A stretch of 64,000 bases of DNA, taken from positions 400 through 64,399 of the forward strand of contig JAHBMJ010004587.1 in the NCBI GenBank assembly GCA_018398765.1. Direction: 5' to 3'. Source of the DNA: Chromera velia (Eukaryota; Sar; Chromeraceae). The notes beneath the pieces are model-generated. The model made no database searches, was not told the origin of the DNA, and saw only the letters and a program-made list of their open reading frames with translations. The position numbers and the translations under genes were made by a program. Of the stretch, positions 28,344 through 63,865 are shown piece by piece (the stretch's first letter is position 1; every line of letters starts with the position of its first letter).

Positions 28344-28874
28344 ATGATGCGCATTTTTCATTCAATCGCCCCACTCCTGGCGCTGTTTTGGGCACCTGGT
28401 GGCGTGATGGGATGGGAACCATTCAAGAAGGGGGGAACACTCCCCACGCGGCCCCAAATGCCCAAACTGAGGGCCGCAAAGGCGATCGAGAATGCGAGAT
28501 CAAAGGGAAAGCTCAAGGAGCGTAGACTTTCGGAAGAAGAGGAGGATGCACGTAGGAAAGTCAATCAGACGGTATTGGAACCATTTGTGGCATTTCAGGT
28601 GGAAGATGAGGTAGGTCTGCATGTGGTCTTTTGTAGTTCACAGCCCCAAAGCTCCATGTGCTCCCGAAGGTGTGGATTGATCATAGAACCAAATTCCCAC
28701 ACGATTGCCCTTGCTCTTTCCCTTTCCTTTTTTCTCTCTATATATCTGTCTTTTTTTTCTATTTTTTCCTCTCTGCCTCCCTCCGTCGAATTCGCCGATG
28801 CATTTTCACATGCAGGTAGTCTCTCTCCCTCTCTCACCCCTTTCTTTCTTTCTTTCTTTCTTTCGTTCGTTCGT

Positions 28875-28915
<41 letters not shown>

Positions 28916-63300: not shown

Positions 63301-63865
63301 TTCCCTTCAATGAAGCCGCCTCCACAGCCTCCTTTGACGGGACAGTCGGGCAGCCTTCAGACTTTGTCACATCTGCGGACGTGCTCTTCTGCGGGGAGGA
63401 GGTGACTGTTCCTGACGGATCGGGGGCAAGCGTCACACTTGCAGTTCCGTTGCCTCCAGAGCTGACTCCTGCAGGGGTCTTTGAGGTCCTCCCGGGGGGA
63501 TCTGGGGTCTTCTTATCCGGTTGGGGACAGCTCGTGTCCTGTTCCTTCCATGACACGGCCAGTGGGAGCTGGAAGGGTGACAGCTGCGTGGTCACAGGTG
63601 TCACAAATGAAGCTCTCCAGTGTTCGTGCTCGCATTTGACTGACTTCTCGGCTGGTGCCCAGTCTTACACTCCCCTCGACGAGCAGAAGGGAGCACATGA
63701 GACTGCAGAGAGTGCTGCCCGAGTACCAGGCTCAGAGGAGACCACCACAACCACCACAGCGGCTGGAGAAGAAGAGGAGTCGGACGGTCCTTCTGCGCCG
63801 TCTCTCCTTCTCGCTCAGATTGTTCTGACGGCGCTTGTGGGAATTCCCGCAATCAGTGGCCTCAT
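28344..63865 (+). CDS. Giant modular surface receptor: SRCR, lipase, EGF, CCP, RCC1, TSP1, REJ, GPS (3' partial)
   Basis: About 53 exons chain with compatible phases into roughly 7,700 codons. The start is the ATG pair at 28344/28347, followed by a signal peptide ([17 protein letters not shown]). Domain order: unrecognised N-terminal region; C2-like segments; SRCR; EGF; class-3 lipase; about 55 EGF modules in blocks; two related beta-type domains; two CCP; three RCC1 segments; glycine-rich domain; two TSP1; REJ-like region; GAIN/GPS; a first membrane helix at 63800-63865. The C-terminal plan matches polycystin-1/REJ and adhesion-type receptors, so more membrane helices should follow to the right. 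Most EGF exons begin and end in phase 1, which allows module shuffling. Weak points are a stop (35942) competing with a splice (35918), in-frame stops at 44196 and 51601, a one-base frame change near 51,800 and a 6-N gap at 57422. It could be two genes split near 36,000. It probably acts at the cell surface in adhesion or sensing. Confidence 0.65.
28844..28914. repeat. (TTCT)n microsatellite in intron 1 of the giant gene
   Basis: TTCT units with a short TTCG interruption fill the intron up to 20 bp from its acceptor. The whole 327-bp intron stays open in the coding frame. Confidence 0.9.
32577..32928 (+). other. Giant gene, exon 8: SRCR domain
   Basis: [50 protein letters not shown] and DIWVTCK follow the scavenger receptor cysteine-rich pattern with its Cys pairs. 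SRCR domains bind polyanions and proteins outside the cell. The acceptor was chosen to keep phase 0 (AG at 32575-32576), although a GCATGCAG lies 15 bp upstream. Confidence 0.8.
33076..34622 (+). other. Giant gene, exons 9-10: C2-like segment, Pro/Ser linker, first EGF
   Basis: Exons 33076-33461 and 33686-34622. Exon 9 is Trp- and Tyr-rich ([15 protein letters not shown]). Exon 10 starts with a C2-like strand pair ([20 protein letters not shown]) and a Pro/Ser/Glu-rich linker. It then has a beta segment, and a first EGF module ([20 protein letters not shown] and following) that ends the exon. Confidence 0.65.
34761..35944 (+). other. Giant gene, exon 11: EGF plus class-3 lipase domain
   Basis: A calcium-binding EGF ([20 protein letters not shown]) is followed directly by a full-length lipase_3 domain. 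It has the nucleophile elbow SGYSRGGG, the strand YGFPRCLGD, catalytic Asp in [12 protein letters not shown] and His in GYTHFGD. All three catalytic positions are kept, so lipid-ester hydrolysis is plausible. The exon can leave by a phase-1 donor (GTCCGT after 35918) into the next EGF exon, or run to the TAA at 35942-35944 and end the protein. Confidence 0.8.
36067..36952 (+). other. Giant gene, exons 12-13: EGF and an unassigned beta domain
   Basis: Exon 36067-36204 encodes an EGF ([20 protein letters not shown] and following). Exon 36509-36952 encodes a beta-rich domain ([20 protein letters not shown], then FTVKIDD and FFVIQWPGF). It resembles pre-peptidase C-terminal or CUB-like sandwich domains, but I cannot assign it. 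Confidence 0.5.
36203..36280. repeat. (CAGT)n(CAGG)n microsatellite at a donor site
   Basis: The intron after exon 12 starts inside the CAGT run, so the donor GTCAGT is itself repeat sequence. The run then turns into CAGG units. Confidence 0.9.
37170..38325 (+). other. Giant gene, exons 14-16: four EGF modules
   Basis: Exons 37170-37286, 37570-37710 and 38074-38325 are all phase 1 to phase 1. They start at [34 protein letters not shown] and [14 protein letters not shown]. The module at 37570 has an atypical end ([16 protein letters not shown]). Confidence 0.8.
38014..38054. repeat. (CTTG)n microsatellite forming an intron 3' end
   Basis: CTTG units run almost to the CAG acceptor of the 38074 exon and provide its pyrimidine-rich tract. 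Confidence 0.85.
38539..38720. repeat. (TC)n-rich pyrimidine tract in an intron
   Basis: Dense CT repeats with C-runs occupy the intron 38326-38821 of the giant gene. Confidence 0.85.
38822..40835 (+). other. Giant gene, exons 17-19: EGFs and two copies of a WN-x-K-W beta domain
   Basis: Exons 38822-39439, 39577-39966 and 40188-40835. Exons 17 and 19 have the same plan: one EGF, then a domain starting CDWNWKLW or CEWNFKDW, with shared VLTVNG, Fx[13 protein letters not shown] and YFVILHG/YYALVSG motifs. These are diverged duplicates. The fold looks like the bacterial pre-peptidase C-terminal beta sandwich (inference). Exon 18 holds three EGFs. Confidence 0.65.
41281..42237 (+). other. Giant gene, exons 20-22: EGF and Cys/Trp-rich domain
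   Basis: Exons 41281-41409 ([18 protein letters not shown]), 41663-41897 and 41978-42237. The last two encode an unassigned domain with [30 protein letters not shown] and a terminal Cys-knot-like [17 protein letters not shown]. Confidence 0.55.
42463..43302 (+). other. Giant gene, exons 23-24: two CCP/sushi-like domains
   Basis: Exon 42463-42675 ([32 protein letters not shown]) has the four-Cys CCP pattern. Exon 43045-43302 ([37 protein letters not shown]) is a second, more diverged copy. CCP domains usually mediate protein binding. Confidence 0.7.
43591..47533 (+). other. Giant gene, exons 25-29: main EGF array (24 modules)
   Basis: Exons 43591-43713 (1 EGF), 43864-45024 (9), 45205-45477 (2), 45666-45917 (2) and 46205-47533 (10). 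Nearly all start D-I/V/L-D/N-E-C and carry the calcium-binding EGF pattern. In exon 43864-45024 the third module contains TAA at 44196-44198 where an ordinary codon before the Cys is expected (GSF-stop-CHC). The rest of the exon stays open in the same frame. Confidence 0.85.
47766..47879 (+). other. Giant gene, exon 30: short Cys-rich module
   Basis: The module [20 protein letters not shown] ends in GGDTLCD. It resembles the ephrin-receptor-like/GCC2-GCC3 Cys repeat seen in protist surface proteins. A second candidate Cys-rich stretch at 47958-48012 does not fit in phase. Confidence 0.5.
48090..49571 (+). other. Giant gene, exons 31-32: EGF, Thr linker, RCC1-like propeller segment 1
   Basis: Exons 48090-48678 and 48841-49571. 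One EGF is followed by a poly-Thr linker (48225-48290) and then RCC1 repeats: [85 protein letters not shown] and [14 protein letters not shown]. About seven repeats give one full propeller. The phase-2 donor GTCAGT at 48679 was chosen to match the next exon. Confidence 0.8.
49812..50641 (+). other. Giant gene, exon 33: Thr linker and glycine-rich domain
   Basis: A Thr/Ser linker leads into a domain with [37 protein letters not shown] and [16 protein letters not shown]. This is the pattern of the glycine-rich domain known from ALK/LTK receptors and some bacterial surface proteins. The frame closes at TAG 50639-50641. A pyrimidine tract ends exactly there, so a 36-bp intron (50606-50641) can restore the frame. 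Confidence 0.6.
50642..51056 (+). other. Giant gene, exon 34: Thr linkers and two EGF modules
   Basis: Two EGFs ([16 protein letters not shown] and [16 protein letters not shown]) sit between two Thr-rich linkers of ACN codons. The exon ends in NPCDVCNCS before a GTCAGTCAGT donor. Confidence 0.7.
51380..52855 (+). other. Giant gene, exons 35-36: RCC1-like segment 2, interrupted
   Basis: Exons 51380-51972 and 52170-52855 encode diverged RCC1 repeats ([29 protein letters not shown] across the splice, [32 protein letters not shown]). Exon 35 contains TAG at 51601-51603 and changes frame once between about 51,790 and 51,850. Its length is one base too long for its flanking phases. The downstream exon is clean. 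Confidence 0.65.
53113..54075 (+). other. Giant gene, exons 37-39: Cys module and three EGFs
   Basis: Exons 53113-53274 ([20 protein letters not shown], a short Cys-rich module), 53523-53645 (EGF) and 53791-54075 (two EGFs joined by a short TTTTPMP linker). All are phase 1. Confidence 0.7.
53301..53359. repeat. (GGGTTT)n/(TG)n microsatellite in an intron
   Basis: Degenerate GGGTTT and GGGTCT units pass into a TG run within the intron 53275-53522. Confidence 0.9.
54316..54345. repeat. (TGCC)n tract ending at an acceptor
   Basis: TGCC units run directly into the TGCAG acceptor of the exon at 54346, so the repeat serves as its pyrimidine tract. Confidence 0.9.
54346..56149 (+). other. Giant gene, exons 40-41: RCC1-like segment 3 with lectin-like insertion
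   Basis: Exons 54346-54697 and 54903-56149. The repeats include [58 protein letters not shown] and [14 protein letters not shown]. After the repeat ending [10 protein letters not shown], about 170 residues (55540-56010; [55 protein letters not shown]) look like a LamG/concanavalin-type lectin domain. A last partial RCC1 unit ([16 protein letters not shown]) follows. Confidence 0.75.
56520..56713 (+). repeat. 194-bp exact direct repeat, copy 1
   Basis: It is identical base for base to 57886-58079, 1366 bp downstream. It covers most of one EGF and most of the next (the DVKEC module). Flanking EGF sequence differs clearly. Confidence 0.9.
57422..57427. other. Assembly gap (6 N)
   Basis: Six unknown bases follow GGACACAC at the end of an EGF exon and precede a GGGA microsatellite (57428-57452). 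The number of N is probably nominal. Confidence 0.95.
57886..58079 (+). repeat. 194-bp exact direct repeat, copy 2
   Basis: This is the second copy of the block at 56520-56713, in another exon of the same gene and in the same reading frame. Confidence 0.9.
58511..59128 (+). other. Giant gene, exons 44-45: two thrombospondin type 1 repeats
   Basis: Exon 58511-58678 ([26 protein letters not shown]-terminal TEC) and exon 58973-59128 ([20 protein letters not shown], then [15 protein letters not shown]). The second keeps the full W-x-x-W and CSxSCG motif. TSP1 repeats are common in alveolate adhesins. Confidence 0.85.
59407..61650 (+). other. Giant gene, exons 46-48: REJ-like region
   Basis: Exons 59407-59918, 60040-61029 and 61366-61650, all joined in phase 0. 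The region is beta-rich with [57 protein letters not shown] and [13 protein letters not shown]. This is the pattern of the receptor-for-egg-jelly module of polycystin-1 family proteins. A helical stretch ([13 protein letters not shown]) starts at the end. Confidence 0.65.
61875..63865 (+). other. Giant gene, exons 49-53: GAIN-like region, GPS site, first membrane helix
   Basis: Exons 61875-62015, 62155-62283, 62575-62740, 62810-63070 and 63262-63865. Helical segments ([34 protein letters not shown]) precede a beta region and then a GPS motif. That motif has [16 protein letters not shown], then [12 protein letters not shown], where autoproteolysis in this family occurs at HL/T. After an acidic, Thr-rich linker a hydrophobic helix starts ([20 protein letters not shown]) and the exon ends in a GTGAGT donor. 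Confidence 0.75.

Follow-up and report, generated by a model that had tools for sequence, protein, structure and literature searches.

A 64,000-nucleotide stretch of a Chromera velia contig (JAHBMJ010004587.1, labelled C3575 here, 79,248 bases; positions 400-64399), referred to below as the window, carries what is best explained as one gene, interrupted at present, that encodes a giant surface receptor or adhesin belonging to a lineage-specific family, with an acquired lipase. We put the probability of this reading at roughly 55%. From N- to C-terminus, the encoded protein comprises a signal peptide, an SRCR domain, a class-3 lipase, 54 EGF domains, a borderline CCP domain, three RCC1 segments, a glycine-rich domain, two TSP1 domains, a borderline REJ-like region, a GPS with an intact HL/T motif, and four to five membrane helices (Table 1). 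The reading is based on these domains, the HL/T motif, the hydrophobic segments, and the kinship of the GPS and of transmembrane helices 4 and 5 (TM4-5) with other loci of the same genome. The gene is probably a divergent, and probably autoproteolytic, member of a family of giant EGF/RCC1/GPS receptors specific to this lineage.

Gene model and domain organization

The sequence read consisted of the window plus 14.8 kb further to the right on the same contig, and genome searches covered 177.8 Mb in 4040 contigs. The model spans 28344-67119 on the forward strand, ending 3.1 kb past the window edge, and has 59 exons (54 inside the window) encoding 8,221 residues, with an ectodomain of about 7,450 residues and a membrane part of 767 residues after the GPS cut site. 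A gene finder written for this analysis was used, after which the final exons were set by hand; the start codon at 28344 was chosen by eye for its signal-peptide-like sequence, where the gene finder gave 28458 or 28407. The 58 introns (56 GT-AG and 2 GC-AG) have clear signals, with a G/GTCAGT-like donor and a TGCAG acceptor, and the longest measures 532 nucleotides (nt). An initial annotation of the window, made without database searches, had joined the domains by phase-compatible exons; in the model 35 introns are of phase 1, 16 of phase 0 and 7 of phase 2. One dominant phase, together with 27 class 1-1 exons among the 57 internal ones, is the pattern of exon shuffling. The model stops before a gene resembling an MFS transporter (28 bits, below the cut-off of 33.4).

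Curated Pfam cut-offs were passed by the SRCR, Lipase_3, EGF, RCC1-like, Gly_rich_2, TSP1 and GPS matches, and the domain list of the initial annotation is essentially real, with the CCPs, the second RCC1 segment taken singly and the REJ region weaker than claimed. For the EGFs, estimated at about 55, a profile built from the protein's own copies gives 54 and a strict cysteine pattern 48. The first RCC1 segment and the stretch holding the second and third are clearly RCC1-like (PF25390, 2.4e-69 for the latter), but the second taken singly (52171-52854) falls short of the cut-off of 150 bits with 32.1, and nothing was found in Pfam for three pieces of the exon preceding it. The first of the two annotated CCPs lies just under the Sushi cut-off (20.4 against 20.7 bits), the second is without a Pfam match, and PDB matches to this part are weak (best E 0.0016). 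Pfam also gave no matches for either look-alike segment flanking the SRCR domain or for the insert in the third RCC1 segment, and an NCBIfam search of seven pieces of the protein gave none.

Table 1. Features of the giant gene, numbered from the first letter of the window.
Feature	Position	Strand	Basis
Start of exon 1, coding for a signal-peptide-like N-terminus (residues 1-22)	28344..28409	+	hydrophobic segment 4-22, score 1.51
Exon 1	28344-28610	+	model
Beta-rich segment, family unassigned, first of two look-alikes beside SRCR	31712..32362	+	by eye
SRCR domain	32563..32928	+	PF00530 7e-13; best PDB match CD5 antigen-like 5.1e-12
Second look-alike, in exon 33184-33461 and the first part of exon 33686-34622	33184..33902	+	by eye
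First EGF	34511..34618	+	EGF_3 3.7e-8
Class 1-1 exon holding one EGF and the class-3 lipase	34761..35918	+	Pfam stretch 35285-35677
Lipase catalytic Ser in GYSRG	35477-35479	+	alignment to lipases
Lipase catalytic Asp in DVVPR	35651-35653	+	alignment to lipases
Lipase putative His in YTHFG	35771-35773	+	placed by eye
Main EGF array, interspersed with untyped domains	36067..47533	+	own EGF profile
Untyped domains within main EGF array	36509-36952, 38942-39439, 40308-40835, 41663-42237	+	no Pfam match above cut-off
Two CCP-like exons	42463-42675, 43045-43302 (region 42463..43302)	+	Pfam Sushi search
In-frame TAA inside an EGF	44196..44198	+	sequence and coding score
RCC1 segment 1	48302..49571	+	PF25390 7.1e-52
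Glycine-rich domain	49922..50587	+	PF21722 (Gly_rich_2) 2e-6
In-frame TAG between glycine-rich domain and Thr-rich linker, same frame	50639..50641	+	coding scores
Two EGFs	50741..50983	+	own EGF profile
RCC1 segment 2, interrupted by TAG 51601-51603 and by an inferred frame change near 51850	51380..52855	+	RCC1-like match in 52171-52854 alone
In-frame TAG	51601-51603	+	coding scores by frame
Inferred frameshift	near 51850	+	coding scores by frame and RCC1 pattern by eye
Three EGFs	53523..54045	+	EGF_3, 3 stretches; own EGF profile recovers two
RCC1 segment 3, untyped insert about 55534-56000	54346..56149	+	PF25390 2.4e-69, best stretch 597-895 of piece
Last EGF array, interrupted by 6-N gap 57422-57427	56323..58237	+	own EGF profile
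Two TSP1 domains	58511-58678, 58973-59128 (region 58511..59128)	+	TSP1_spondin 2.8e-18, TSP_1 4.4e-12
REJ-like region (Pfam part about 60919-61483)	59407..61650	+	PF02010 24.8 bits, cut-off 25
GAIN-like region ending in GPS (Pfam part 63537-63650)	61875..63650	+	PF01825 3e-6
Predicted cut between L and T of HLT	before T codon 63639-63641	+	HLT intact
TM1 start	63801..63865	+	hydrophobicity
Model beyond window (cytosolic loop, TM2-TM5, stop)	64074-65133, 65281-65558, 65992-66115, 66275-66777, 67008-67119	+	

The GPS placed by the initial annotation before the first membrane helix is well defined, with 28.1 bits against a cut-off of 22.5 (E 3e-6 for the exon alone, 1.6e-5 in a longer query). It retains four cysteines, one of two tryptophans and the HLT motif, from which self-cleavage at HL/T is predicted, and TM1 follows it. 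TM1 is succeeded by a long charged stretch and, beyond the window, by three further hydrophobic segments, of which one is wide enough to hold two helices; the four segments scoring at least 1.5 after the GPS thus amount to four to five helices. The initial annotation had suggested looking to the right for further helices, a PLAT domain and a polycystin channel domain. The helices are there, but Pfam found no families at E up to 5 between TM1 and the stop (716 residues), PLAT, PKD channel and seven-transmembrane (7TM) domains included. A genome-wide PLAT search (0 matches) is uninformative, as its controls were equally silent. A motif FPSLHRFVD / FPSLLRFID occurs by eye after TM1 and again at the extreme C-terminus (4233-4300 and 7020-7110 of piece L007), and a motif like FPSLHRFVD closes the TM5 exon of the paralogues, also by eye.

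The region preceding the GAIN-like part is named REJ-like, not REJ. The match to PF02010, whose domain is about 600 residues long, lies just below the cut-off (Table 1) and its alignment spans just profile positions 345-422 of 452; a shorter query piece (prefix inexact) gives 18.1 bits. BLASTP against the REJ of the paralogue on contig C3608 gives 7e-4. In contrast to these two indications, a four-sequence paralogue REJ profile scores -10.0 bits on the region, with shuffles up to 6.3, and a phmmer comparison with paralogue REJ scores -7.9, with 236 of 491 reported shuffles equal or better.

The GPS family of the genome

The genome contains 14 GPS matches, all above the cut-off, with HLT kept in 12 of them, and 6 REJ matches, two of which are on GPS contigs (C3608 and C3495). 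EGF_3 has at least 150 matches (150 of 150 scored, 1379 candidates), and the RCC1-like profile at least 132 (112 of 227 candidates scored). Upstream of the GPS, RCC1 and EGF are found on three of the 13 other GPS contigs, as in the giant gene, each time on one strand: C185 (RCC1 12116-14377, EGF 18275, GPS 21282), C3495 (RCC1 36026-35178, EGF 31806, GPS 12618) and C3608 (RCC1 60992-60216, EGF 49225, GPS 30357). A fourth contig, C100, has EGFs alone upstream of the GPS, on the same strand. The REJ matches accompany RCC1, EGF and GPS on C3495 and C3608. It seems from these matches that the RCC1-EGF-GPS plan recurs in the genome. Gene chains were predicted for three of the 13 other GPS loci: on C100 a single chain joins EGFs, GPS and TM1, the only such case among the three modelled loci; on C185 most of the GPS exon is lost from the predicted chain; at the C3608 locus REJ (2e-10) and GPS (7e-10) lie on one predicted chain.

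The GPS of the giant gene resembles those of four other loci, with E values between 2.1e-6 and 4.6e-4 and 31–41% identity. A TM4-5 profile of nine paralogue pieces scores 14.9 bits against the giant protein, compared with at most 6.4 in 500 shuffles preserving the hydrophobic pattern and -1.3 for the reversed sequence. The corresponding value for TM2-3 is 0.9 bits, and 41 of 422 reported shuffles score as high. The similarity to the other GPS loci is seen in GPS and TM4-5, and not in TM2-3. Like the giant gene, the 13 other loci have GPS, TM1, a long cytosolic stretch and a TM4-5 likeness. The giant gene is distinguished by its lipase and, by the searches made, by its Gly_rich_2 domain, the single match of that family in the genome being its own. 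Of the domain combination presented initially as undescribed, the lipase-GPS pairing is seen here alone, whereas RCC1, EGF and GPS matches occur together on C185, C3495 and C3608 as well. RCC1-like and EGF matches also lie close together on one strand, with no GPS match, on contigs C3945, C3899, C1433, C57 and C1852, so that the genome may use the pairing of RCC1 with EGF more widely.

Interruptions of the reading frame

Between 44.2 and 51.9 kb the gene is interrupted four times, and three of the interruptions lie within 1.3 kb. Coding scores per base (references: 5th percentile of exons +0.053, 95th percentile of introns -0.069) amount to +0.076 across the TAA (44080-44214), to +0.121 and +0.078 upstream and +0.106 downstream of the TAG at 50639, and to +0.123 before and +0.061 after the TAG at 51601. 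The score then falls to -0.006 in 51763-51857 and is +0.072 in another frame to 51982, which, together with the RCC1 pattern judged by eye, suggests a change of frame near 51850. As assembled, the gene thus cannot be read in a single frame, implying either a decaying copy or assembly errors. Short introns that skip the stops and the frame change were rejected as a cause: the four possible introns have donor scores of 1.8, -0.32, 3.39 and 0.47 and acceptor scores of -0.48, -1.05, -0.44 and -2.09, so that both ends of all four are below the 5th percentile (donor 3.72, acceptor 4.25; 56 introns of at least 120 nt). A change of genetic code was likewise rejected, with just two TAG and one TAA in about 8,200 codons.

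The possibility that the gene is dead, i.e. a decaying copy with no full-plan product, is a serious one, which we rate at somewhat below even odds. The clustering of the interruptions is consistent with decay, as are the loss of a cysteine in two EGFs (SFDSQC and CAFLEGY, by eye, in exons 43864-45024 and 57707-58237) and the finding of no second copy of the exon of RCC1 segment 2 in the genome. On the other hand, the rest of the model is open, the GPS, lipase triad and TM pattern are retained, and one assembly gap lies nearby, and short-read assembly errors are possible. If dead, the gene would be a relic showing that the plan existed once. The 6-N gap is flanked by a 209-base direct repeat (56505-56713 and 57871-58079, 99% identical), which is either a recent duplication or an assembly fault.

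The embedded lipase and a proposed mode of action

The lipase domain belongs to PF01764 (Lipase_3; 2e-14, 54.1 bits against a cut-off of 22). Its Ser and Asp align with those of known lipases in PDB, in alignments that are themselves non-significant (E 0.18-0.28), and with four other lipases of the same genome; the His was placed by eye alone. The domain is catalytic-looking, as initially annotated, and has the family match and triad of a class-3 lipase, but the RGT motif at the oxyanion strand, present in all four other genome lipases aligned, is replaced by AEDT, and the GHSLGG motif reads GYSRGG. We regard the domain as a putative enzyme that may act on lipids. Its exon, of class 1-1 and shared with an EGF, would permit insertion as a cassette.

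Among the 33 Lipase_3 matches in the genome, two are on the contig of the giant gene, and no close copy of the embedded lipase was found at the protein level (1 match, itself, of 5 candidates). A lipase adjoining a GPS is seen solely in the giant gene, the lipase match on C3608 lying about 90 kb from its GPS. Searches of one literature library found no paper describing a lipase within an EGF/RCC1/GPS receptor plan, and to our knowledge this lipase would be the first enzyme in such a plan. A candidate lipase-EGF gene on contig C547 was rejected, as the lipase is at the contig edge, the EGF matches are 15.6 kb on and signs of a single gene are absent. The window holds another class-3 lipase frame on the forward strand (21250-22719; PF01764 4.5e-15). 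It lies upstream of the giant gene, at a distance of 5.6 kb, and is not close in sequence to the embedded lipase.

We propose that the ectodomain would form an EGF fibre bearing the SRCR, CCP-like and TSP1 domains and RCC1 propellers as binding modules, together with one class-3 lipase. The fibre would be anchored by the REJ-like/GAIN-like region, and the GPS would cut itself at HL/T, the two parts staying associated. Once a ligand is bound or the fibre is pulled, the ectodomain would come away, and the membrane part, with its four to five helices and long charged cytosolic loop, would meet the newly exposed end TDFSAG. If the gene is intact in the living organism, the lipase may act at the tip of the long fibre on lipids of a cell or particle held by the SRCR and EGF part. 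Cleavage, tension release and signalling are suggested by the GPS and by analogy with known GPS receptors. The initial picture of a surface receptor with a built-in enzyme and an autoproteolytic stalk is thus upheld in its domains, HL/T motif and helices, and remains predictive for cleavage, signalling and lipase activity. A non-signalling adhesin, in which the lipase fold merely binds and the GPS merely permits shedding of the fibre, is a rather unlikely alternative. It would agree with the AEDT and GYSRGG replacements and with the appearance of PAD4, a non-enzymatic member of the class-3 lipase class, in the PDB match list of the lipase, but the triad Ser and Asp are present, and there is a His at a position consistent with the usual pattern.

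One gene or several

The initial annotation named separate genes as what would overturn its single receptor, and to some extent the stops do allow the gene to be read as two. Two or more genes would give a secreted SRCR-lipase-EGF protein, ending at the in-frame stop at 44196 or 50639, and an RCC1-EGF-TSP1-GPS receptor starting after about 51.8 kb, an arrangement that we consider improbable. Two gene-finder runs with loose settings gave a single gene, and two with stricter settings gave two genes, split at 51603/51776. However, same-frame coding-like sequence runs on past each stop, and the TAA sits within an EGF. Also, the proposed start at 51776 lacks, by eye, a signal-peptide-like sequence that its product would require, and with a largest intron of 532 nt there is no intergenic-looking room.

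Several points weigh against a single receptor gene of a lineage-specific family. First, besides the split in the stricter runs, the giant gene itself supplied the training data for both the intron-exon model and the coding score, and the gene is known here from DNA alone. Secondly, there are the three in-frame stops and the frame change, all missed by the initial annotation. Thirdly, residues 1095-1113 form a hydrophobic segment (score 1.89); were this segment to span the membrane, the proposed topology would no longer hold. Finally, with respect to family membership, TM2-3 has no detectable kinship to the paralogues, REJ kinship is negative in two of four tests, and the RCC1-EGF-GPS order elsewhere consists of matches up to 30 kb apart in genes that are unproven.

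It appears quite doubtful, more so than the division into several genes, that an intact allele makes an enzyme-armed autoproteolytic receptor of 8,200 residues, whose ectodomain of about 7,450 residues with an active lipase is released or pulled off on contact. If it does, binding, lipid attack and signalling would be parts of one molecule in a unicellular alga, and rich-ectodomain GPS-type receptors would have arisen outside animals and their relatives.

Comparison with known systems

The polycystin-1/sea urchin REJ (PKD1) family shares with the giant gene a REJ-like region, GPS, TM1 and a large modular ectodomain; its usual order, as outlined in part of PMC1934368, is REJ, GPS, PLAT and 1–11 TM. 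The initial annotation had named this plan, but nothing specific to polycystin was found past the REJ-like region and GPS. A true polycystin-1 family receptor is highly improbable, as REJ is below the cut-off, neither PLAT nor a channel matches in the residues from TM1 to the stop, the helices number 4–5 rather than 11, no PKD-channel match was found on the 14 GPS contigs, and the paralogue TM2-5 profile found no polycystin chains in PDB. Also, the giant gene has lipase, RCC1 and EGF arrays where the PKD1 family has PKD repeats and lectins.

In adhesion G protein-coupled receptors (GPCRs; GAIN/GPS plus 7TM), as in the giant gene, a GPS with HL/T lies below a modular EGF-bearing ectodomain, but their 7TM domain gives no Pfam match between TM1 and the end of the giant gene. 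Furthermore, the fusion of GAIN and 7TM and the structured ectodomain are placed in holozoans in part of PMC12716839, whereas the giant gene comes from a probable alveolate. Apicomplexan CRMPs are, like the giant protein, cysteine-rich, EGF-bearing, multi-pass surface proteins, many of which are ascribed to Chromera velia in part of PMC9815656. They have 9 helices compared with 4–5 here, a distinction that is based on helix count and not on sequence comparison, and GPS is not mentioned for them in PMC9815656 (0 occurrences). Expansions of EGF, sushi and TSP1 in chromerid extracellular proteins are cited as data not shown in part of PMC4501334, and GPS, REJ, RCC1 and lipase are unmentioned in its extracellular-protein section.

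GPS receptors with rich ectodomains are known mainly from animals and their close relatives, according to part of PMC12716839. The 14 GPS matches in a probable alveolate, several with EGF, RCC1 and REJ upstream, provide an independent set for testing whether self-cleavage and tethered activation have an ancient origin.

Neighbouring genes

Three further frames of the window were typed. Divergent from the giant gene, a long frame at 24952-27675 (reverse strand) matches Peptidase_S41 weakly, at 18 bits against a cut-off of 24. The frame at 8594-9727 (forward strand) is borderline for pseudouridine synthase, with 26.7 bits against 26.8, and that at 4695-6329 (reverse strand) contains a cytochrome b5 domain (2.3e-13).

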